From NCBI GenBank assembly GCA_028821405.1, contig JAPPGK010000061.1:1-61586 (forward strand): a stretch of 61,586 nt of DNA, in the 5' to 3' direction. Shown here piece by piece: positions 48,976 to 59,294 of this stretch. The notes under the pieces are model-generated. The model was not told the DNA's origin. It made no database searches and saw only the letters and a list, made by a program, of their open reading frames with translations. The stretch comes from Gammaproteobacteria bacterium (GTDB lineage: Bacteria > Pseudomonadota > Gammaproteobacteria > Pseudomonadales > Azotimanducaceae). Position numbers and translations under genes: made by a program. Position 1 is the stretch's first letter. Every line of letters starts with the position of its first letter.

Positions 48976-50235
48976 GTGGAAGATCTGCTAACCCAAACCA
49001 ACTACGCCATCGACACCTTCTACTTCCTGGTGATGGGAGTACTCGTGATGTTCATGGCGTGTGGCTTCTCGATGCTCGAGGCGGGGATGATCCGGGCCAA
49101 GAACACCTCGGAAATCCTCACCAAGAACGTCGCGCTGTACTCCATTTCCTGCATCATGTACCTGCTGTTCGGGTACTACATCATGTATATCGATGGCACC
49201 GAGGGGGCGTGGCTGCCCAGCTTCGGTTGGCTGATCGGTGTTGAGAACACGGCCGAGGAGATCGTAGCCGGGACCGCGGGTGGCGTGGCGACAGACCACT
49301 CCGAACGTTCGGACTACTTCTTCCAGGTCGTGTTCGTGGCGACGGCCATGTCCATCGTGTCCGGCGCTGTCGCCGAGCGCATGAAGCTTTGGGCCTTCCT
49401 GCTCTTCGCGGTTGTCATGACCGGGCTGATCTATCCCGTGCAGGGCATGTGGACCTGGGGCGGTGGCTGGCTGAGTGCCGCTGGCTATTCGGACTTCGCC
49501 GGTTCGGGCATTGTCCACATGTGCGGTGCGGCCGCAGCGCTTGCAGGGGTACTTCTGCTTGGACCGCGGGCCGGCAAGTACGGGCCCAGTGGCCATGTGA
49601 ACGCCATTCCGGGCTGCAACATGCCGCTCGCGACGCTGGGCATGTTCGTCCTCTGGTTCGGTTGGTTCGGGTTCAACGGTGGGTCCGAACTCAAACTCTC
49701 CAACGTGGATGAAGCCAACGCGGTGGCGGAGGTCTTCGTCAATACCAACATCGCCGCCTGCGGCGGATTGGTGGCGGCGCTCATCCTCGCGCGGGCGTGG
49801 TTCGGCAAGGCGGACCTGACCATGGCGTTGAACGGGGCGCTTGCCGGGCTGGTCGCGATCACCGCCGACCCTCTCTCGCCGCATCCGTTCTGGGCGATGA
49901 TCATCGGCGGTGGCGGGGGTCTGCTCGTGGTGGTCTCGATCGTCATGTTGGACAAGATCAGGATCGATGACCCCGTCGGTGCCATCAGCGTTCACGGCAC
50001 ATGCGGCATCTGGGGCATCATCGCGGTGACGTTCAACAACGCCGATGCGACAATCCTCGGACAGTTGCTCGGCATCGTGGGCATCTTCGCTTGGGTATTC
50101 GCGGCGTCGTTCGTGGTCTGGTTGGTTCTCAAGGCGACCATGGGCATCCGGGTTTCGGAAGAAGATGAGATGTCCGGTGTCGATCTCGCGGAGACCGGCA
50201 TCGAGGCCTACCCGGAGTTTCAGCAAGCCGCCTAA
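48976..50235 (+). CDS. amtB: Ammonium transporter AmtB
   Basis: The protein has 419 residues from a GTG preceded by AGGAG. It has eleven predicted membrane segments, starting with YFLVMGVLVMFMACGFSMLE. The twin pore histidines fall in GIVHMCGAAAA (about residue 180) and ISVHGTCGIWG (about 340). It lacks a cleavable signal peptide; residue usage in the first helix matches the Amt subgroup without a leader. It conducts ammonium across the inner membrane under GlnK control. Confidence 0.97.
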   Translation: MEDLLTQTNYAIDTFYFLVMGVLVMFMACGFSMLEAGMIRAKNTSEILTKNVALYSISCIMYLLFGYYIMYIDGTEGAWLPSFGWLIGVENTAEEIVAGTAGGVATDHSERSDYFFQVVFVATAMSIVSGAVAERMKLWAFLLFAVVMTGLIYPVQGMWTWGGGWLSAAGYSDFAGSGIVHMCGAAAALAGVLLLGPRAGKYGPSGHVNAIPGCNMPLATLGMFVLWFGWFGFNGGSELKLSNVDEANAVAEVFVNTNIAACGGLVAALILARAWFGKADLTMALNGALAGLVAITADPLSPHPFWAMIIGGGGGLLVVVSIVMLDKIRIDDPVGAISVHGTCGIWGIIAVTFNNADATILGQLLGIVGIFAWVFAASFVVWLVLKATMGIRVSEEDEMSGVDLAETGIEAYPEFQQAA

Positions 50236-50505: not shown

Positions 50506-51855
50506 ATGCTGGATGAACTGGGAATCGTCGGCATTTCTTGGCGCCGCCTCGGCAGCGAAGCGCTCGCCGACTATTCGCTCCCAACCGAGCAGCGCGACGC
50601 CCGATTGGAGCGGTTTGCCCGCACCGAAGCGCTCGCCGAGCTCGCCTACGTCGAGACCTGCAACCGCGTCGAGATCGTCTTCGCGGGGAGTGACGAAGCG
50701 GCGGCACGGGATCTGCGCGCACCTGCCTTCGAACTGCTAACCGGTGCCAAGCCGTCGCCTGGCGAGGCGGAACGGACGCTCAAGGCATGGCGGGGCGAGG
50801 GTGCTTGCGAGCACCTGTTCCTGGTTGCCGCAGGTCTCGACTCGGCAGCCGTCGGCGAAGTGGAGATTGCCGGCCAGGTCCGCCTCGCCCATGATCGTGC
50901 CCGGGCATCGGGACTTTGCGGTGCGCGACTGTCTCTGCTGTTCGAGGAGGCGGGCCGGATCGCGGCTACGGTCCGCCATGGCACCTCCTTGGGAGAGGGC
51001 TCCGTATCCTTGGCCGAGGTGGCGATGGCCCACGTTCGACGTCGGCTCGCCCGAACTTCGGGAACGGTGGCCTTGATCGGCGTCTCGGCGATGACCGAAC
51101 GCGCGGCGCTGTCGTTGGCCAAGGAGAAGGTGCCGTTCCTGGTGGTCAACCGTACCCCGGCCAATGCACGGGAATTCACCGAACGCTTCGATGTGCCGAG
51201 TGTTTCGCTTGCCGACTTCCGGCAATCACCGCCGCCGGTCGAAGTTTTTCTGTCGGCTACGGGATCCCCCGAACCGGTGATCGATGCTCCGACTCTCGGT
51301 CGCCTCGCCGGCGCGGCGGGGTCGGGTGAGCTACCCCTCGGAATCGACATGGCGGTGCCGGCGGACATCGATGCGGAAGCGTCCCGCAAGCTCGGCATCA
51401 GGCGCATCGGCATGGACGAGATCGTGCACGAGGCCGAGTCGAACCGAGAGGCACGTCTGCTCGCCGCGGCGGACGCTCGGGCGTTGGTGGACGAAGCCCT
51501 GCCACGGCTCAAGGACAAGGTGGTCGATCAGGTCTACGGACCGTTGTTCGCGGCGCTGCAAAAGCACTACCAGGAGGCGGCGACAACGGCCGTGGCAAGG
51601 TTCGCGAAGCATCTCGGCGAACTGGACGCCGAGACTCGCCGACACCTCGACGCCTGGGCGAAGTCCTTAGGAAGGCGTATGGCGCACCTGCCGACCGTTG
51701 GACTCAAGGGTCTCATGCGGTACGGTCCCGAGGGCTCGCTGGACGCGTTCCTGAAGGGGCTCGATCCGAAGCGTCGTGACTTGCTGCGCAAAGCGGTCCA
51801 CGGCGGCGAGAGGCAGGCCAACACGAGCGAGGAAGCCGATGATCCTAAGGCGTGA
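50506..51855 (+). CDS. hemA: Glutamyl-tRNA reductase
   Basis: The 449-residue protein starts at an ATG with AAGGTG upstream. The catalytic Cys52 lies in VETCNRVEI; the NADPH domain contains VALIGVSAMTERAALSLAKE, and a C-terminal dimerisation helix follows EIVHEAESN. It makes glutamate-1-semialdehyde, the first committed tetrapyrrole precursor. The N-terminus (MLDELGIVGISWRRLGSEAL) differs from the usual proteobacterial LxxLGxNHxTAP start, suggesting a separate lineage. It heads an operon of overlapping genes; the next start lies 17 bases inside its end. Confidence 0.93.
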   Translation: MLDELGIVGISWRRLGSEALADYSLPTEQRDARLERFARTEALAELAYVETCNRVEIVFAGSDEAAARDLRAPAFELLTGAKPSPGEAERTLKAWRGEGACEHLFLVAAGLDSAAVGEVEIAGQVRLAHDRARASGLCGARLSLLFEEAGRIAATVRHGTSLGEGSVSLAEVAMAHVRRRLARTSGTVALIGVSAMTERAALSLAKEKVPFLVVNRTPANAREFTERFDVPSVSLADFRQSPPPVEVFLSATGSPEPVIDAPTLGRLAGAAGSGELPLGIDMAVPADIDAEASRKLGIRRIGMDEIVHEAESNREARLLAAADARALVDEALPRLKDKVVDQVYGPLFAALQKHYQEAATTAVARFAKHLGELDAETRRHLDAWAKSLGRRMAHLPTVGLKGLMRYGPEGSLDAFLKGLDPKRRDLLRKAVHGGERQANTSEEADDPKA

Positions 51856-52960
51856 TCCAACCAAGGCGCTCCAGGTGGGGTTTCTCGCGGTACTTGTCGT
51901 CGCCACGGCTCAGGTGGCTTGGTGGATCCTCGACCAGCGCGCGCTGGCACGGGGCGAACAGGACCAACTCGTGGAGCTTTACGAGTCGGATGCGTCCGCG
52001 GTGACCGCCTTCGCCGAGTTGTGGAAGGTGACGCGCGGCGCGTCCCTTGACACCGAGGCCGTTGCATTGGCGGAGGCCGTCGCCGGTTTTCCCCATTTGA
52101 CCTTCGACCCCGACGCCGGCATTGCATCGGTGCGGCCGGGTGCCGTCGACAACCTGGCGGACGACGTCGCGTCCCGCATAAACCGCTATGCCTGGGAAGG
52201 TGGGTTCTTTCTGCTTGTGCTGCTCGTCGGCATGGGGGTGCTGACCCGTGCCATTCGCGACGACGCCCAATTGCGGCGGCGCCAGCAGAACTTCATTGCC
52301 GCTGTTTCGCACGAGTTCAAGAGCCCGTTGGCCAGCATGCGGCTCTCCGGTGAAACGTTGGCAACGCGGAGCACGGAACCGGACAGCCGTCGACTGGGCG
52401 AGCGCTTGGTGGAGGACGGTGATCGACTGTTGCGCATGGTGGACAACCTTCTCGACACGGCACGGATCGACGATGGCCGGATCAACCTGCGTCGAGAGTC
52501 CGTGCCGTTGCGCGAGGCCGTCGAAGGGGTGACCGCCGGACAAACCGCGCGCGCAGCACGGGAGGGGATCGCCATCCTTGCCGACGTACCGGCCGTCACG
52601 GTGGAAGCGGATCCCCTCGCCCTCGAGAGCGTGTTGGGCAACTTAATCGACAACGCCATCAAGGCGTGCAGCGCGGGGGATGGTCGGGAGATTTCCATTG
52701 CGGCACACCGAGCCGGAACCGAGGTTGTCGTCGAGATCAGCGACGATGGAATCGGCTTTCCGCCCAGGGATGCCGCAAGGATCTTCGAGAAGTTCTACCG
52801 GTCGGAGGACGAAGGTACGAACCCGATGCCCGGAACGGGCCTTGGCCTCTACGTGGTGCGCCGACTTGCGGAGATCTCGGATGCACGCGTTGTCGCAAGA
52901 AGCGCAGGACCGGGCAAGGGCGCAACCGTCACCGTGACTTGGCCTGCCCCTCGGACATGA
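51839..52960 (+). CDS. Sensor histidine kinase within the heme operon
   Basis: The ATG at 51839 lies inside the end of hemA and gives 373 residues. Two transmembrane helices (about 12-31 and 121-137) flank a periplasmic region of roughly 85 residues with no recognised sensor domain. The H-box is NFIAAVSHEFKSPLASMRLS with phospho-acceptor His158; the ATPase domain has NLIDNAIKA, DDGIGFPP and GTGLGLYVVRRLAE. No HAMP domain is evident. Its overlap with hemA and the regulator gene suggests control of, or by, heme synthesis. Confidence 0.9.
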   Translation: MILRRDPTKALQVGFLAVLVVATAQVAWWILDQRALARGEQDQLVELYESDASAVTAFAELWKVTRGASLDTEAVALAEAVAGFPHLTFDPDAGIASVRPGAVDNLADDVASRINRYAWEGGFFLLVLLVGMGVLTRAIRDDAQLRRRQQNFIAAVSHEFKSPLASMRLSGETLATRSTEPDSRRLGERLVEDGDRLLRMVDNLLDTARIDDGRINLRRESVPLREAVEGVTAGQTARAAREGIAILADVPAVTVEADPLALESVLGNLIDNAIKACSAGDGREISIAAHRAGTEVVVEISDDGIGFPPRDAARIFEKFYRSEDEGTNPMPGTGLGLYVVRRLAEISDARVVARSAGPGKGATVTVTWPAPRT

Positions 52961-53706
52961 GCGCACCCGATCTCTCGGCAAGGATTCTCGTCGTCGATGA
53001 CGAGGCGCACCTGGCGGCCGGGATTCGCGAGAACCTCCTCGCGGAAGGCTACGTGGCCGAGACGGCCCACAACGGGGCCGAGGGCCTTCGCGCGGCACGC
53101 GACGCGTCGTACGACCTGATCGTTCTGGACGTGGCCATGCCGGAGATGGATGGTCTCGAGATGTGCCGGGCCCTGCGCCGGGAGGGCATCGAAACACCGG
53201 TGCTGTTCCTCACGGTTCGCAGCGCGCCCGAAGACCGGATTGGCGGTCTCGAGGCGGGCGGCGACGACTACCTGGTCAAACCCTTCCATCTGAAGGAACT
53301 GCTGCTCAGGATCGTCGCCATCCTGCGCCGCACCAAGTGGTACAACGAAACCACGGCCAAGCTTCGCTTCGGTGGCAACGAGATCGACTTTCGCACGTAT
53401 CGAGCCTGCGCGTGGGACGGATCGGAACATGCGCTCACCCACAAGGAAGCGATGATCTTGAAGCTCCTGGCGGAACGCGGCGACGGCGTGGTGGGACGGG
53501 AGGATATCCTCGATAGGGTCTGGGGCTACGAGGTCTTTCCGTCCACGCGCACCATCGACAACTTCATCGTCCGACTGCGTCGGCGATTCGAACGCAACCC
53601 GGACGCCCCCGCCCACCTGCACACGGTCCGGGGCGTCGGCTATCGTTTCACGAAAGCGCCCCAAACCCCGGCCAGGGGCGACCGGCGGGATCGGGTGGCG
53701 CCATGA
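52957..53706 (+). CDS. OmpR-family response regulator within the heme operon
   Basis: The ATG at 52957 overlaps the kinase stop (ATGA); the product has 249 residues. The receiver domain has the acidic pair in ILVVDDEAHL, phospho-acceptor Asp58 in LIVLDVAMPEMDG, and Lys in DDYLVKPFHLKELL. The C-terminal winged helix (ALTHKEAMILKLLAERGDGV, RTIDNFIVRLRRRFE, VRGVGYRF) is OmpR/PhoB-like. It is the cognate partner of the kinase. The DNA target may include the region upstream of hemA. Confidence 0.94.
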   Translation: MSAPDLSARILVVDDEAHLAAGIRENLLAEGYVAETAHNGAEGLRAARDASYDLIVLDVAMPEMDGLEMCRALRREGIETPVLFLTVRSAPEDRIGGLEAGGDDYLVKPFHLKELLLRIVAILRRTKWYNETTAKLRFGGNEIDFRTYRACAWDGSEHALTHKEAMILKLLAERGDGVVGREDILDRVWGYEVFPSTRTIDNFIVRLRRRFERNPDAPAHLHTVRGVGYRFTKAPQTPARGDRRDRVAP

Positions 53707-54722
53707 GCGACAAGCTCCTGCTCAAGGCGCTCGCTCGCGAAGGCGTTCCGAGGCGCCCGCTGTGGATCATGCGCCAGGCAGGTCGCTGCCTCCCGGAATA
53801 CCGGGCCATGCGCGAGACCCATTCCTTCAAGGCCCTGTCCGGCAGTCCGGAACTGGCTGCCCAAGTGAGCTTGCTCCCCTTGCGGCGCTACCCCTTCGAC
53901 GCGGCCATCGTGTTCGCCGACATCATGAGCCCGCTTCCCGCGCTGGGCGTGCATTTCGACTTTGCGCCGGGACCGGTGGTGGCCGAACCGATCCGCAGCC
54001 AGGCGGGAGTCGATGCGCTGCATGACGCGCAAGTCGAGTGCCTCGCGCCGGAGGTGATCGAAACCGTCGCGCGGGTGCGTGAGGCCGCGCCCGACGACGT
54101 CGCGGTGCTCGGCTTCTGCGGCGCGCCGTGGACGTTGGCGGCGTACCTGGTCGAAGGACGCGGCGTCAAGGACTTCCCCACGCTGCGCACCTTCGCGGCG
54201 GCGGAACCCGCCGTTCTCGATGCCCTGCTTGCCAAGCTCTCGTCGGCGATGGCGGACTACCTCATCGCCCAGGCGAAGGCCGGGGCGGATGCCGTTCAGG
54301 TGTTCGATTCCTGGGCCGGGCTGCTTTCGCTGGCCGACTGGAACCGGTTGATCCGCCCCCATCTTCAAAGCTTGCTCGATACCGTTGGCGAGACCGGCGT
54401 CCCGAGGATTCTCTTCGTACAGAACGCGCCGCACCTGATGGACGCCTACGCCGAACTCCCGGCCCAGGCCATCAGCGTCGATTGGCGCACGGACATCGCC
54501 CGAGCGCAGCGGCGGTGGTCGGGGCATGCACTCCAGGGCAACATCGACCCCGCCGTCCTGCTCGGCGGGGAGGACGCCACGCGTCGCGCGGCTCGAGACC
54601 TGCTGGCGCGTGTCGAGCCCCGGGGCCACATCGTCAACCTGGGTCACGGTCTAATGCCCGAAACGCCGCTTGGGAGCATCGACGCGCTTGTCGAGGCCGT
54701 ACACAACGAGGTCGCGCCATGA
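53703..54722 (+). CDS. hemE: Uroporphyrinogen decarboxylase
   Basis: The 339-residue protein starts at an ATG overlapping the regulator stop. The N-terminal PLWIMRQAGRCLPEYRAMRE is the signature of the family; Asp in AAIVFADIMSPLPALG and the C-terminal GHIVNLGHGLMPETPLGSID complete the active-site pattern. It makes coproporphyrinogen III, the branch point between the classical and coproporphyrin-dependent routes. The following gene starts within its stop codon. Confidence 0.96.
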   Translation: MSDKLLLKALAREGVPRRPLWIMRQAGRCLPEYRAMRETHSFKALSGSPELAAQVSLLPLRRYPFDAAIVFADIMSPLPALGVHFDFAPGPVVAEPIRSQAGVDALHDAQVECLAPEVIETVARVREAAPDDVAVLGFCGAPWTLAAYLVEGRGVKDFPTLRTFAAAEPAVLDALLAKLSSAMADYLIAQAKAGADAVQVFDSWAGLLSLADWNRLIRPHLQSLLDTVGETGVPRILFVQNAPHLMDAYAELPAQAISVDWRTDIARAQRRWSGHALQGNIDPAVLLGGEDATRRAARDLLARVEPRGHIVNLGHGLMPETPLGSIDALVEAVHNEVAP

Positions 54723-55429
54723 GTGAGGAACAACGCCTCCCCGACATGAGCGAGAAGGGCCGCCGGGAGGGACGGGAGATCTCCCTCGACCGGCGTTTGT
54801 TCATGAAGTTCACGGCATTTGAGGGTTCCGCGTCGGAAGCGGCCCGGGCGCTCGCCGAGTCCGGGTTCGAGGGCGCGGTCTACCGCGACGTCAACGATCC
54901 CAAGGGCATCGGAACCCTCGTGCTGGCCGAGGATCCGACGGTCTTCGTCACGTCGCTACGCGAGAGGTTCAACGACGGGCCGTTCAGCGTCATGGCGCAC
55001 CAGCCGGCATACGACATGCTCGGCCGGACCTATTCCATCGGCTACGAAGGAGACCTTGAAGAGGTGCTCTTCGACCGACCTCGGCGTCGGATCCTCGACC
55101 CGGCGCTGTGCTGGGCGGTGTGGTATCCCCTGCAGCGCAGCAAGGCTTTCTACCGCCTCGACGACGACCGGCAACGTGCGATCCTCGGCGAACACGGCGG
55201 CATCGGCCGGCGCTACGGCGAGGCGGGGCTCGCCGCCGACGTGCGGCTCGCCTGCCACGGCCTGGACCGCAACGACAACGACTTCGTGATCGGCCTGCTG
55301 GGGCGTAGGCTGCATCCGCTGTCCGCGCTCGTGCGTGAGATGCGCGCCACGGAACAGACCTCGCAGTACCTCGACCGCTTGGGGCCGTTCTTCGTCGGAC
55401 ACGTTGTCTGGCAGTCGCCGCGTTCTTAG
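54719..55429 (+). CDS. Chlorite dismutase/HemQ-family protein, candidate coproheme decarboxylase
   Basis: The 236-residue product belongs to the chlorite dismutase superfamily: WYPLQRSKAFYRLDDDRQRA, ILGEHGGIGRRYGEAGLAAD, a CHGLDRNDNDFVIGLLGRR segment containing a likely proximal heme-ligand His at about residue 180, then LVREMRATEQTSQYLDRLGP and FFVGHVVW. The HGxIGRxY segment and the gene order, between hemE and hemH, favour HemQ/ChdC, which turns coproheme into heme b, over a true chlorite dismutase. Active-site residues need structural alignment. ATGA overlaps couple it to hemE, and hemH begins directly after its stop. Confidence 0.8.
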   Translation: MSEEQRLPDMSEKGRREGREISLDRRLFMKFTAFEGSASEAARALAESGFEGAVYRDVNDPKGIGTLVLAEDPTVFVTSLRERFNDGPFSVMAHQPAYDMLGRTYSIGYEGDLEEVLFDRPRRRILDPALCWAVWYPLQRSKAFYRLDDDRQRAILGEHGGIGRRYGEAGLAADVRLACHGLDRNDNDFVIGLLGRRLHPLSALVREMRATEQTSQYLDRLGPFFVGHVVWQSPRS

Positions 55430-56503
55430 ATGACGACTGCGGGTTTCGACGAGGGGGCGCGCAATTACGACGCCGTCCTCGTGGTCTCCTTCGGCGGCCC
55501 CGAGGGTGCCGACGAAGTAATGCCCTTCCTGGACCGCGTGCTCGCCGGCCGGCCGGTGCCGACGCCAGTAAAGGCCCGCATTGCCGAGCGCTACGCCCGG
55601 TTCGGCGGCGTCAGCCCCATCAACGCCCAGACACGCGAATTCATCGCGGCGCTCGAGGCCCGGTTGGCCGCCAAGGGACCACGACTGCCGGTGTACTGGG
55701 GCAACCGGAACTCGGCACCGTTGCTCGGCGATGCGATGCGGCGCATGGCCGGCGACGGCATCAGGAACGCCATCGCCTATGTCACGAGCGTGTTCAGTTC
55801 GTACAGCGGGTGCCGCCAGTACCGGGAGGACCTGTTCCGTGCGGCCGAAGGAGCGGAGGACGCGCCCCGGATCGACAAGCTGCGCGTCGCCTACAACCAC
55901 CCCGGCTTCATTGCGGCGATGGAGCACCGTGTGCGCGAGGCACAAGCGATGGCGCCCGAGGGGGCGGCGCTGCTATTCACCGCGCACAGCCTGCCGGTGG
56001 CCATGGCCGCGCGTGCTGACTACGAGGCGCAACTTGACGAAGCGTGCGGTCTGGTCGCGCAACGCCTAGGCGACGTTCACTGGCGGCTTGCATTCCAGAG
56101 CAACAACGCGCGAACGGGCGATCCGTGGCTCACGCCGACGGTCGAGGACGCGCTGGCTTTGATCGCGTCATCGGGCCGTCCGGCTGTCGTCGTGGTGCCC
56201 ATCGGTTTCGTCTGCGATCACATGGAAGTGGTCATGGATCTCGACGTCGAAGCCCGCACCTGCGCCGAAGGCCTGGGATTGGGCTACTTCCGCGCGCGCA
56301 CGGTCGGCACCCATCCGGCCTACGTTGACATGGTGCGGCAATTGGTCGTCGAGCGGATGTCCGCGAACCCGCTTCGACCGTACCTTGGCCGACGCGGTCC
56401 GAATCCCGACTACTGCATGCCGGACTGTTGCCTGTCGGGAAGACCCGGCGCGCCAGTGTCGACCGTGGGCGGTGTGGGCGACGTACAGCCGGCATCTCGA
56501 TGA
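55430..56503 (+). CDS. hemH: Ferrochelatase of the Gram-positive-like type (coproporphyrin or protoporphyrin)
   Basis: The 357-residue protein begins immediately after the preceding stop. VVSFGGPEGADEVMPFLDRV, FGGVSPINAQTREFI, PVYWGNRNSAPL and VTSVFSSYSGCRQYREDLF are motifs seen in actinobacterial-type ferrochelatases. The catalytic His is in LLFTAHSLPVAMA. Four Cys fall near the end, including CMPDCC at about residue 329, reminiscent of the [2Fe-2S] ligands of that lineage. With the HemQ-like neighbour it would insert iron into coproporphyrin III. The next gene overlaps its stop. Confidence 0.93.
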   Translation: MTTAGFDEGARNYDAVLVVSFGGPEGADEVMPFLDRVLAGRPVPTPVKARIAERYARFGGVSPINAQTREFIAALEARLAAKGPRLPVYWGNRNSAPLLGDAMRRMAGDGIRNAIAYVTSVFSSYSGCRQYREDLFRAAEGAEDAPRIDKLRVAYNHPGFIAAMEHRVREAQAMAPEGAALLFTAHSLPVAMAARADYEAQLDEACGLVAQRLGDVHWRLAFQSNNARTGDPWLTPTVEDALALIASSGRPAVVVVPIGFVCDHMEVVMDLDVEARTCAEGLGLGYFRARTVGTHPAYVDMVRQLVVERMSANPLRPYLGRRGPNPDYCMPDCCLSGRPGAPVSTVGGVGDVQPASR

Positions 56504-57861
56504 CCGCGGATCGTCGTCGAGACGTATTGGTCATCGGTGCCGGTCTTGCCGGCCTTGCCGCGGCGCTGCGCCTGCAGGAAAGCGGCTGCGACGTGGAAGT
56601 ATTGGAGGCGAAATCCCGGGTAGGCGGCCGGATCCGCTCGATCCGCCGCGGCGACGGCGTCGAGGAAGCGGGCGGCACGACCATCGGCGGAGGCTATCGA
56701 CGGGTGATTGACGCGGCGGCGCGCTACGGCGAGGAACTGATCGATGCGACCCCGATGCTCGCCTTCTTCCGCGAGCAGGACTTGGTGTTGCGTGGAGAGA
56801 TCATCCGTCAAGCCGAATGGCCGACACATCCTGCCAATCCGTTCCCGGCCCCGGACAAGGCACTGATGCCCTGGAACTTTTCTCGCGTGCTGACGGGGCG
56901 GGAGAATCCGCTGCGCGAACCGGGCACGTGGCTCGAACCGGGCTCAGCGCATCTCGACGTGTCGATGCACGAATGGATGACGGGACTCGGTTTCGACGAC
57001 GAGACGGTCGCCTTGGGTTACGGGCTCAACACGAGCTACGGCCACGATGCCCACGACATCTCCGCCTTGATGATGCTCGCCCGCGCCGCGTTCTCCACGG
57101 CCCAGCGCCGCCAGGTTCCCGAAGGGGTCGTCGGCTACACCGTGCGTGGCGGTGCGCAACGGATCCCGGAGGCGATGGCCAGGGCGTTGGTGAACGAGGT
57201 GCGGTTTGACAAGACAGCAACGGGAATCGAGGACGGCGCGTCCGAAGTGAGTGTTCACTGCGCCGACGGAACTTCGTATCGCGCGGATCGTGTGGTCTGC
57301 GCCGTGCCAACTCCGGCACTGCGGAGGCTAGCCTTGCGGCCCGCGTTGGCGGGACCGCAGGCGGAGGCGGTGGCCGGTCTACCCAGCCAGCCGATGACCC
57401 AGTTCTACTTCGCCACGAAGTCGGACTTCTGGAAGCATGACGGTTATGCGCCAAGCCTCTTCACCGACGGACCGGCGGGGATGGTCGCCGCTTCGCGGCG
57501 GGGCGAAGATCCCGAACGGGTGACTGGCCTGACAGCGTGGGTGATGGGACGCAACGCCCTGCGATTGGATGGCCTTTCCCCGGAACGCGCCGCTGCCACG
57601 GTCGTCGAAGAAATCGAGTCGGTACGGCCCGCCGCCCGCGGTCAGCTTGACTACATCGGTCGCCAAAGCTGGGCGGCGGATCCCTTTGCGGGTGGCGGCT
57701 GGGCCTATTTCCGGCCCGGCCAGGTCACCCGTTTCGGGTCGACCATGTCCGCGCCCCACGGTCGCATACACTTCTGCGGCGAGCATCTCGCTCGGATCGA
57801 CCGGGGCATGGAAGGTGCCATGGAGTCCGGCGAACGGGCGGCGGAGGAGATCATTTCGTGA
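56500..57861 (+). CDS. Flavin amine-oxidase superfamily protein, possible porphyrinogen oxidase
   Basis: The ATG at 56500 overlaps the hemH stop; the product has 453 residues. The FAD-binding VLVIGAGLAGLAAALRLQES starts at about residue 10, with VGGRIRS and a C-terminal IHFCGEHLARIDRGMEGAME, then SGERAAEEI, as in amine oxidases and HemY-like proteins. Its C-terminus looks closer to monoamine oxidases than to classical HemY. In this operon it is the best candidate for the coproporphyrinogen III oxidation step, but a different flavin reaction is possible. Confidence 0.8.
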   Translation: MTADRRRDVLVIGAGLAGLAAALRLQESGCDVEVLEAKSRVGGRIRSIRRGDGVEEAGGTTIGGGYRRVIDAAARYGEELIDATPMLAFFREQDLVLRGEIIRQAEWPTHPANPFPAPDKALMPWNFSRVLTGRENPLREPGTWLEPGSAHLDVSMHEWMTGLGFDDETVALGYGLNTSYGHDAHDISALMMLARAAFSTAQRRQVPEGVVGYTVRGGAQRIPEAMARALVNEVRFDKTATGIEDGASEVSVHCADGTSYRADRVVCAVPTPALRRLALRPALAGPQAEAVAGLPSQPMTQFYFATKSDFWKHDGYAPSLFTDGPAGMVAASRRGEDPERVTGLTAWVMGRNALRLDGLSPERAAATVVEEIESVRPAARGQLDYIGRQSWAADPFAGGGWAYFRPGQVTRFGSTMSAPHGRIHFCGEHLARIDRGMEGAMESGERAAEEIIS

Positions 57862-58277
57862 GCCTTCATCCAACCGCGGAGCGCATCGCCAAGGAGAGCT
57901 TCGCCTCGCTGATCGGCGTCGAGCTTGTCGAACACGACGAGGACCGGGTCGTCGTCAAACTTCCGTACCAGCGGAAACTCGGCGTCGGTCGGATCCACGG
58001 CGGTGCCATCAGCGCACTGGTGGACATCGCCGCCACGGCCGCTTTCTGGTCGTGTCCCAACGTGACGCCTACCTCCCAAGGGGCGACGGTGGGTTTCACC
58101 ATCAACTTCCTGAAGCTGGCCGTTGCGACGGATCTCGTGGCGACGGCGACCGTGCGGCGCCGGGGCGGCACACTGTGTACGGGCGATGTCAGCGTCCGAA
58201 ACGCCACGGGCGACGAAGTCGCGGCGGCGATGGTCACGTACAAGTTGACGGGGTATCGATCGAACACGGAACACTAG
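57858..58277 (+). CDS. PaaI-type hotdog thioesterase
   Basis: The 139-residue protein starts at a GTG overlapping the previous stop (GTGA). The hotdog fold is shown by KLGVGRIHGGAISALVDIAA, with the catalytic-type His-Gly-Gly, and GATVGFTINFLKLAVATDLV. Such enzymes hydrolyse acyl-CoA esters. Its tight coupling to the heme genes is unexplained; it may simply be a passenger. Confidence 0.88.
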   Translation: MSLHPTAERIAKESFASLIGVELVEHDEDRVVVKLPYQRKLGVGRIHGGAISALVDIAATAAFWSCPNVTPTSQGATVGFTINFLKLAVATDLVATATVRRRGGTLCTGDVSVRNATGDEVAAAMVTYKLTGYRSNTEH

Positions 58278-58548: not shown

Positions 58549-58854
58549 ATGAAGAACATCACGGTATCGGTGGACGAGGAAGTCCACCGGCTGGCACGAA
58601 TCCGGGCCGCAGAACGAGACACGTCGGTGTCCGCCCTCGTGCGGGACTTCCTTAGGCGCCTTGCGACGGGTCCCGTAGACGACACGACAGCCATCGAGGC
58701 AAGAATGGATGTGGACGAACTTCGTCGGAGGCGCCTGCGGGAGGTGCTCGCTGACATCCGCGCCACAACGGGGGGATTCAAGGCGGCGGACAACATTCCT
58801 CGTGATCAACTCTACGAACGCAACCGAGCAGATCACGACCCCGCAGGCGCGTAG
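58549..58854 (+). CDS. VapB-type ribbon-helix-helix antitoxin
   Basis: The protein has 101 residues. A ribbon-helix-helix DNA-binding domain occupies the first 45 residues (MKNITVSVDEEVHRLARIRA, then ERDTSVSALVRDFLRRL). The Arg-rich C-terminal tail (ELRRRRLREVLADI) would wrap the toxin. It is followed 5 bases later by the vapC gene, which is the expected order for an antitoxin-toxin operon. Confidence 0.88.
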   Translation: MKNITVSVDEEVHRLARIRAAERDTSVSALVRDFLRRLATGPVDDTTAIEARMDVDELRRRRLREVLADIRATTGGFKAADNIPRDQLYERNRADHDPAGA

Positions 58855-58859
58855 GGTTC

Positions 58860-59294
58860 GTGCGCTTCGTCGACACCAACGTTCTGATTTACGCGGCGAG
58901 TCCGGCACCCGACGAGGCGACCAAGCAGCGAAGCGCCCAACGCCTTCTCGAAGCAGGGGACTTGGCGCTGTCGGTGCAGGTGTTGCAGGAGTTCTATCAC
59001 CAGGTGACGCGCCCGACCCGTCCAACGCCGTTGACGCAGGATCACGCACTGCAGTTCATCGCCAGTCTGGGAGACTTCCCTGTTCAGGCCATAACCCTCG
59101 ACGTGTTTCGAAACGCCGTGGCGATCAGCCGTCGCTTTCGGCTGTCCTATTGGGACGGCGCGATTCTCGCTGCGGCAACCGCTGCGGGTTGCGATGCCGT
59201 GTATTCGGAGGACATGAACGCCGAGCAGGACTACGGCGGCGTGCGCGTGATCAATCCGTTCTCCGAACCGGATGGTGGGCCGCGCCCAAACTAG
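58860..59294 (+). CDS. VapC-type PIN-domain ribonuclease toxin
   Basis: The 144-residue PIN domain protein starts at GTG 58860. The acidic active-site residues are visible: Asp5 in FVDTNVLIY, Glu44 in VLQEFYHQV, Asp99 in SYWDGAIL and Asp118 in YSEDMN. VapC toxins cleave tRNA or rRNA. The toxin appears intact. Its end overlaps the convergent acetyltransferase gene by 4 bases. Confidence 0.9.
   Translation: MRFVDTNVLIYAASPAPDEATKQRSAQRLLEAGDLALSVQVLQEFYHQVTRPTRPTPLTQDHALQFIASLGDFPVQAITLDVFRNAVAISRRFRLSYWDGAILAAATAAGCDAVYSEDMNAEQDYGGVRVINPFSEPDGGPRPN

Follow-up and report, generated by a model that had tools for sequence, protein, structure and literature searches.

Gene content of the operon

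The window, a 61,586-nucleotide stretch of DNA, belongs to the draft genome (97.6% complete) of an uncultured member of the Gammaproteobacteria. Positions 50506-58277 hold eight genes, all on the plus strand, whose refined coordinates place neighbours next to each other or in overlaps of 17 or 4 bases. The string opens with hemA (50506..51855), encoding glutamyl-tRNA reductase of the C5 route to ALA; its product has the GlutR_N, Shikimate_DH and GlutR_dimer domains and scores 188 bits with TIGR01035, below the cut-off of 209.6. A 17-base overlap leads into a sensor histidine kinase gene (51839..52960; HisKA and HATPase_c), presumed to regulate the cluster, and then an OmpR/PhoB-type response regulator gene (52957..53706; Response_reg and Trans_reg_C). 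These are followed by hemE (53703..54722), for uroporphyrinogen decarboxylase (TIGR01464, 358 bits, over the cut-off), a divergent ChdC/HemQ gene (54719..55429; PF06778) for a proposed coproheme decarboxylase, and hemH (55430..56503), whose product passes the TIGR00109 cut-off at 144 bits and is proposed to be the coproporphyrin ferrochelatase CpfC. Next comes the gene for an FAD oxidase of the monoamine-oxidase (MAO) family (56500..57861; PF01593), for which we propose the role of coproporphyrinogen III oxidase. The last gene of the overlapping string encodes a hotdog-fold thioesterase (57858..58277; TIGR00369, and PF03061 at 43 bits, over the cut-off) that is probably accessory and outside the heme pathway. 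The sequence-only reading had described eight overlapping or abutting genes of a heme operon, and the refined coordinates and family matches confirm this. Base composition gives no sign of a recent arrival (G+C 66.7% in the operon and 65.8% in the remainder), and no structured RNA was detected at the gathering threshold within the window.

Conservation of the cluster

The order kinase, regulator, hemE, HemQ-like gene, hemH and oxidase is identical in all nine genomes of the genus that carry the HemQ-like gene, and it recurs outside the genus as far as the contigs extend, so that it cannot be put down to chance. Within the genus, the kinase and response regulator are kept in 9/9 loci, hemA lies immediately 5' of the kinase in eight of nine, and a thioesterase gene follows the oxidase in six of nine. 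The cluster is also present in 20 genomes outside the genus, where the thioesterase has no match in any of the 20 loci. In all 17 outside loci that extend beyond hemH, the adjoining gene is the oxidase. In thirteen of the 20, hemC, hemD, hemB and hemL separate hemA from the kinase gene, so that the only step from glutamyl-tRNA to heme without a gene is the oxidation of coproporphyrinogen. These loci thus leave over one step, that oxidation, and one enzyme gene, the MAO-family oxidase, which is the only oxidase gene of the cluster.

Classical heme genes in the genome and its relatives

In profile searches of the window's genome, HemF, HemN (in its full form), HemJ, HemY/CgoX and HemG-type proteins all remained below the cut-off, leaving the coproporphyrin-dependent (CPD) pathway as the sole route with genes found. 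The genome has HemE, a ferrochelatase and ChdC with neither HemF/HemN nor a classical protoporphyrinogen oxidase, which is the gene content of the CPD pathway; it has no CgoX to serve as the coproporphyrinogen III oxidase. Formation of heme b via coproporphyrin III and coproheme is predicted from these genes.

Among 16 genomes of the genus, we found the ChdC/HemQ-like gene in nine, none of which has HemF, HemN or HemJ. Four others carry HemF, HemJ and another ferrochelatase, and the remaining three have none of ChdC, HemF, HemJ and that ferrochelatase. ChdC and the HemF-HemJ pair never co-occur in these 16 genomes, and the ferrochelatase is of the matching kind each time. The nine ChdC genomes are 90-100% complete; one (G013) is a single contig and the others are drafts. 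Gaps in draft assemblies as the reason for the missing classical genes were rejected because HemF and HemJ are jointly missing from all nine, the single-contig genome included, and jointly present in the four others. HemY, HemJ and HemG-type oxidases are likewise absent from the nine ChdC genomes. HemN and HemJ were searched for across 29 relatives. HemY/CgoX (TIGR00562) passed its cut-off in 0/29 relatives and 0/20 outside genomes, compared with 4/14 controls. One of the 20 outside genomes has HemF, on a 3.4-kb contig, and two have Flavodoxin_5 (HemG-type) over the cut-off.

A coproporphyrin-type operon in a proteobacterium, as the sequence-only reading had it, is thus supported by the gene content of the genome together with the HemQ-like residues described below, and the genome search for classical genes that it called for ended with HemF, HemN, HemG-type and HemY all below the cut-off. 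Its idea of an alternative pathway needs a qualification, since the CPD route seems to stand alone in this genome and not to be an addition to another. The same reading had named a complete classical route, found alongside a HemQ-like protein without the residues that bind coproheme, as the outcome that would speak against it; the genome has no complete classical route, and neither the catalytic Tyr nor the proximal His is missing from the protein.

The ferrochelatase and the ChdC-like protein

The cluster HemH was expected from the initial reading to be of a distinct type, and NF000689 bears this out, with 353 bits compared with 51-58 bits for the other ferrochelatase of the genus. A HemH profile built from 28 relatives scores 321 bits with 28wn, a structure named coproporphyrin III ferrochelatase, while the next match, 2ac2, has 174 bits and mitochondrial enzymes have at most 142. 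By sequence, HemH thus falls in the CpfC subfamily, and we propose that it is a CpfC, predicted to prefer coproporphyrin III to protoporphyrin IX.

The HemQ-like protein scores 55 bits with PF06778, over the cut-off of 25. All 29 members of the family match HemQ_actino at an E-value of 0.001 or better, yet the first member reaches 42 bits, short of the 235 that this curated HemQ model sets as its cut-off. The protein's predicted structure (pLDDT 80.8) is modelled with the chlorite-dismutase fold; the 50 matches listed have TMq of 0.62-0.68, the top ones among them are coproheme decarboxylases and HemQ, and the first chlorite dismutase (Nitrospira) stands at rank 29. Y136 and H159 are invariant in all 29 HemQ-like rows and align with Y135 and H158 of C. 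diphtheriae and Y147 and H174 of Listeria, of which we take Y135 and Y147 to be the catalytic Tyr and H158 the proximal His. PMC5157759 gives Listeria H174 as the proximal His. The two invariant residues correspond to the catalytic Tyr and proximal His in the HemQ-like protein.

The distal Gln is replaced by Asp, with D174 at the position of Listeria Q187 (the Thermus and Geobacillus alignments concur with that to Listeria), and an invariant Arg (R176) stands two residues further, at Listeria I189. This invariant Asp-x-Arg of the distal pocket brings to mind the Asp/Arg pair that dye-decolorising peroxidases have. According to PMC9751292, chlorite dismutases are defined by a distal Arg, and PMC5157759 aligns that Arg with Listeria Q187. 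The alignments suggest that this Arg is missing from the HemQ-like protein, although the nearby R176 may count as one. We do not favour a chlorite dismutase because an Asp stands at the distal Arg position and coproheme decarboxylases come first by fold. We propose that the protein is a very divergent ChdC, a putative H2O2-dependent coproheme decarboxylase.

The monoamine-oxidase-family flavoprotein

The oxidase is a member of the flavin-containing amine oxidoreductase family (209 bits with PF01593, over the cut-off). With TIGR00562, the HemY/CgoX model, it scores 38.7 bits against a cut-off of 97.85, over residues 30-96 only. Its AlphaFold model (pLDDT 90.6) matches amine oxidases; in a Foldseek search, the first row was 2bxs with a TMq of 0.80, the 50 matches listed ranged from 0.73 to 0.80, and no CgoX or protoporphyrinogen oxidase was among them. 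It scores 119 bits with human MAO-B, and amine and amino-acid oxidases are its nearest solved kin among the matches listed. A CgoX in disguise was rejected as to family, because TIGR00562 covers the nucleotide-binding part only and the nearest folds are amine oxidases.

An ortholog of the oxidase was found in all nine ChdC genomes, while the remaining 20 relatives lack one, apart from a single 32% match in G014. The cluster oxidases form a single clade with support of 100/100, in a tree with long branches, among them those of L047 in the cluster set and of several sequences from outside it. Left out of the tree were L011, with unknown bases, L041, cut by a contig end, and the re-found genus loci L026-L032 and L052. 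Oxidase divergence tracks that of ChdC, HemE, HemH, the kinase and the regulator (rho 0.70-0.83). Non-cluster relatives with 28-49% identity lie in hem-free surroundings in the genomes of other Gammaproteobacteria; in a survey that scored at most four candidates per genome, 8 of 368 other genomes of the class had the family with no hem genes in the neighbourhood examined.

Lys296, Cys397 and Tyr398 of MAO-B align with Gln, Gly and Trp in the oxidase, and Tyr435 aligns with a gap. We take Lys296 to be the MAO-type Lys, Cys397 the flavin-linking Cys and Tyr435 the second cage Tyr, all of which the oxidase would thus lack by alignment. As a mark of a heme oxidase, this loss is weakened: the relatives outside hem clusters have also lost several amine-oxidase residues, so that the loss alone does not point to a porphyrinogen substrate. 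Better marks of the cluster oxidases are 13 positions, including F89, F90, E92, Q93 and R129, whose residue is shared by at least 23 of 24 cluster rows but by at most two of 12 others. We propose that this protein is the missing coproporphyrinogen III oxidase. No canonical CgoX passes the cut-off in nine genus genomes and 20 outside genomes with the cluster; this gap, which the sequence-only reading had not noticed, is the most novel part of these results.

Proposed route to heme b and its rivals

We consider it quite likely that the operon serves to make heme b through the CPD route, with the MAO-family flavoprotein in place of CgoX, and that this is the only heme route with genes found. From the observed gene content, order and conservation, the absence of classical genes and of CgoX over the cut-off, the folds and the key residues, we infer the enzyme activities, the oxidase substrate and the kinase signal. 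HemA would start the C5 route and HemE would yield coproporphyrinogen III, from which the flavoprotein would take six electrons, probably passing them to O2, to give coproporphyrin III. HemH, as a CpfC, would insert iron to form coproheme, and the ChdC-like protein would decarboxylate two propionates with H2O2, perhaps supplied by the oxidase, and so form heme b. The two-component pair probably tunes the operon in response to heme, iron or oxidant. We lean, with less assurance, towards the joint reading of a new MAO-derived coproporphyrinogen III oxidase in a self-contained gammaproteobacterial CPD operon with a ChdC of invariant Asp-x-Arg distal pocket, in which the oxidase may feed H2O2 directly to ChdC, the two-component system may sense heme, and one of the two routes, CPD or classical, took the place of the other within a single genus.

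It would be rather unlikely, in our estimate, that the CPD route is real while the flavoprotein acts on another substrate and the oxidation of coproporphyrinogen III falls to some unrecognised enzyme elsewhere, to CgoN or to no enzyme at all. Amine oxidases are the closest proteins by both fold and sequence, the relatives away from hem genes could be read in the same way, and PMC10965808 presents CgoN as a known alternative oxidase of Bacillaceae. Against these points stand the strict pairing of the oxidase with ChdC in the nine genus genomes and 17 outside loci, the separate clade of cluster oxidases with all cluster genes diverging in step, and the lack of HemY, HemJ and HemG-type proteins in the nine ChdC genomes. 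Far less probable still is that heme comes from a classical or siroheme route, that the HemQ-like protein has another task, for example removing chlorite or protecting against peroxide, and that the classical genes are missing through incompleteness of the genomes. The draft state of every genome but G013 and the weak scores on HemQ models would fit such an account, but the joint absence of HemF and HemJ from nine of nine ChdC genomes and their joint presence in four of four genus genomes with the other ferrochelatase speak against it, and the distal Arg of chlorite dismutases (PMC9751292) is not at that position in the HemQ-like protein.

In this group of Gammaproteobacteria, the CPD route is the only heme route found. 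Reviews describe that route as Gram-positive, with a few diderm phyla, and our literature searches returned no paper that we recognised as describing such a gammaproteobacterial operon. Close species of one genus differ in having the CPD route, the classical one or none of the two, and thus offer a natural experiment on how one pathway replaces another. Should the oxidase act as proposed, which is open to direct test, a central pathway would have recruited, independently of CgoX and CgoN, yet another enzyme for one and the same step.

Comparison with known systems

The oxidase shares its fold over the full length with human MAO-B and bacterial putrescine and monoamine oxidases, but differs from MAO-B in having Gln, Gly, Trp and a gap for Lys296, Cys397, Tyr398 and Tyr435. 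CgoX/PgoX (HemY) is likewise FAD-dependent, of the wider amine-oxidase superfamily and encoded beside CpfC and ChdC, whereas the match here to TIGR00562 is limited to 67 N-terminal residues and the nearest folds are amine oxidases. CgoN (YtpQ) of Bacillaceae is a precedent for a non-CgoX enzyme at coproporphyrinogen III oxidation (PMC10965808); it belongs to the DUF1444 family, in contrast to Amino_oxidase PF01593 here. HrrSA and ChrSA of Corynebacterium are heme-responsive two-component systems similarly tied to heme synthesis, according to PMC10991733, while here the kinase-regulator pair, a presumed sensor system, lies inside the heme operon. According to the same 2024 review, the diderm phyla in which most genomes carry ChdC are Planctomycetota and Acidobacteria. 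With the CPD pathway of Actinomycetota and Bacillota (HemE, CgoX, CpfC and ChdC), the system has in common HemE, a CpfC-like and a ChdC-like protein and the lack of HemF, HemN and HemJ. It differs in occurring in Gammaproteobacteria, in having a MAO-family protein instead of a CgoX over the cut-off and, in 13 of the 20 outside loci, in gathering the whole route, along with a two-component system of its own, into one cluster.

Operon structure and heme gene content

The sequence-only reading had described a self-contained heme operon of the coproporphyrin-dependent (CPD) type, and its eight-gene string was borne out. On the forward strand at 50506-58277, hemA, a histidine kinase gene, an OmpR-type regulator gene, hemE, a PF06778 (chlorite dismutase/HemQ) gene at 54719-55429, hemH at 55430-56503, a PF01593 flavin amine oxidoreductase gene and a hotdog thioesterase gene follow one another, with neighbors that abut or overlap by 17 or 4 bases. 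HemA scores 188 bits, below the TIGR cut-off of 209.6, with all three GlutR domains present. Upstream, the gene at 48976-50235 encodes an ammonium transporter that matches the marine-subtype model TIGR03644 with 650 bits, and a transporter of this type lies upstream of the operon in five of nine genus loci, as far as these were fetched. On the 3' side, two small ORFs at 58549-59294 resemble, as judged by eye, a toxin-antitoxin pair whose toxin has a PIN domain; in some genomes of the genus, their kin also lie close to the operon.

The same reading had proposed searching the whole genome for hemF, hemN, hemG and hemY, and none was found over cut-off in the 4.77-Mb assembly (G000; 122 contigs, 97.56% complete; the window is its contig C2). 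HemF, HemJ and HemG-type flavodoxin had zero matches, HemN a single weak one (105 bits, where the cut-off is 325) that is probably HemW, and the HemY/CgoX model TIGR00562 gave short matches only, all under cut-off. The sole ferrochelatase match is the operon's hemH. We consider it very likely that this genome uses the CPD route.

Distribution among relatives

The HemQ-like gene is present in nine of the 16 genus genomes (G000, 2, 3, 4, 7, 8, 9, 11 and 13), in each of which the one ferrochelatase gene adjoins it and HemF, HemJ, HemN and HemG-type flavodoxin were not found over cut-off. Four others (G005, 10, 14 and 15) carry HemF and HemJ together with a different kind of ferrochelatase; the three of these ferrochelatases scanned with NF000689 scored 51-58 bits, versus 353 for the window's protein. 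In the remaining three (G001, 6 and 12), neither HemF, HemN over cut-off, HemJ, ferrochelatase nor the HemQ-like gene was found, G012 being a single contig; these three may be auxotrophic for heme or rely on a different route. With their differing heme gene sets, the 16 genomes form a natural experiment. All 13 relatives from the rest of the family or order lack the HemQ-like gene. One same-family genome, G018 (92% complete), has a ferrochelatase and HemJ, with no HemF, HemN over cut-off or HemQ-like gene found.

A species-genome scan with two motif patterns, whose reach is limited to close kin, identified 28 loci, eight of the genus and 20 outside it. The outside loci keep the order kinase-regulator-hemE-HemQ-like-hemH-oxidase as far as their contigs reach. 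Thirteen of the 20 carry hemC, hemD, hemB and hemL as a complete block in the interval from hemA to the kinase gene; part of this block is visible where L036, L041 and L051 begin, L043, L044, L046 and L050 begin downstream of its position, and none of the four genes was found in the nine genus loci or the window. In two of the outside loci, L033 and L053, profiles named hemC, hemB and hemL over a cut-off, and hemD best matched uroporphyrinogen-III synthase but below its cut-offs. HemF was found in one of the 20 outside genomes (G033, locus L037) as a full match on a 3,356-base contig (C16), which may be foreign or may mark a genome with both routes. One locus at 53-70% identity (L042) comes from a record titled Acidobacteria bacterium; either the record may be mistitled or the cluster may extend beyond one phylum.

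Reviews place the CPD route in Gram-positive bacteria, with coproheme decarboxylase (ChdC) also in most Planctomycetota and Acidobacteria genomes (PMC10991733), and describe Proteobacteria except Deltaproteobacteria as mainly using the classical route (PMC10740692). We recognized no description of such an operon in the portions of the literature returned by our search. In view of its patchy spread, the cluster may well have been acquired from another phylum.

Ferrochelatase and ChdC-like protein

A profile built from 28 hemH members finds 28wn, a chain named coproporphyrin III ferrochelatase, at 321 bits; the next chain follows at 174 bits, and mitochondrial ferrochelatases reach 142 at most. 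Cys 329, 333 and 334 are invariant (28/28 rows, alignment A4), and a fourth cysteine in the C-terminal tail, found in 19 of 28 rows, is absent from the window's protein, in which an iron-sulfur site may have been lost or altered.

HemQ_actino matches every one of the 29 ChdC-like members with an E-value of 0.001 or lower, but the window's protein reaches just 42 bits, the model's cut-off being 235. Its structural model (pLDDT 80.8, with lower confidence near residues 181-185) ranks HemQ and coproheme decarboxylases first, at 14-21% identity over the 50 matches listed. Y136 and H159, conserved without exception, occupy the positions of the catalytic Tyr and the proximal His. Listeria Q187 corresponds to the catalytic Arg in chlorite dismutases (PMC5157759); in our sequence alignment an invariant D174 takes the Q187 position and an invariant R176 that of Listeria I189, which suggests a new distal pocket, with Asp-x-Arg at 174/176.

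A candidate coproporphyrinogen oxidase

HemY/CgoX was not found over cut-off in any of the 29 relatives or 20 outside genomes, versus 4 of 14 controls; HemG-type flavodoxin exceeds its cut-off in two of the 20. Bacillaceae provide a precedent for an unrelated enzyme at this step, the coproporphyrinogen oxidase CgoN (PMC10965808). Clusters like L033 hold a gene for every route step but coproporphyrinogen oxidation, and their sole unassigned enzyme gene is the flavoprotein. It directly follows hemH in all 17 outside loci that continue past hemH (L038, L048 and L051 end before its position). The nine ChdC genus genomes all have an ortholog at 64-100% identity; among the other 20 relatives, only G014 yields a hit with an E-value of 1e-20 or lower (32% identity).

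Among 369 genomes drawn evenly from the class, nine, the window's own included, have homologs at E 1e-60 or better; the other eight hold 12 copies at 28-49% identity, and the stretches fetched around these copies, in some cases short contigs, showed no match to hemE, the HemQ-like gene or hemH. A tree of 36 oxidase rows places the 24 cluster rows on one side of a branch with 100/100 support, albeit with a long-branch warning from the tool, and 13 positions mark this clade. The regulator, kinase, HemE, ChdC, HemH and oxidase have correlated pairwise identities (rho 0.61-0.87 in 30 comparisons, in each of which none of 999 permutations reached the observed value), as would be expected of a cluster, oxidase included, passed on as a unit. 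We propose that the flavoprotein is quite probably the coproporphyrinogen oxidase of this route; the joint reading, a CPD route with the flavoprotein in that role, we also regard as likely.

The oxidase model (pLDDT 90.6) is closest, among the matches listed, to human MAO-A, putrescine oxidase and a bacterial monoamine oxidase. What speaks for a porphyrinogen substrate is gene content and pairing rather than these residues, since part of the changes relative to monoamine oxidase also occur in relatives outside hem clusters: in the alignment, where MAO-B has Lys296, Cys397 and Tyr398, the oxidase has Gln301, Gly and Trp401, and Tyr435 of MAO-B faces a gap.
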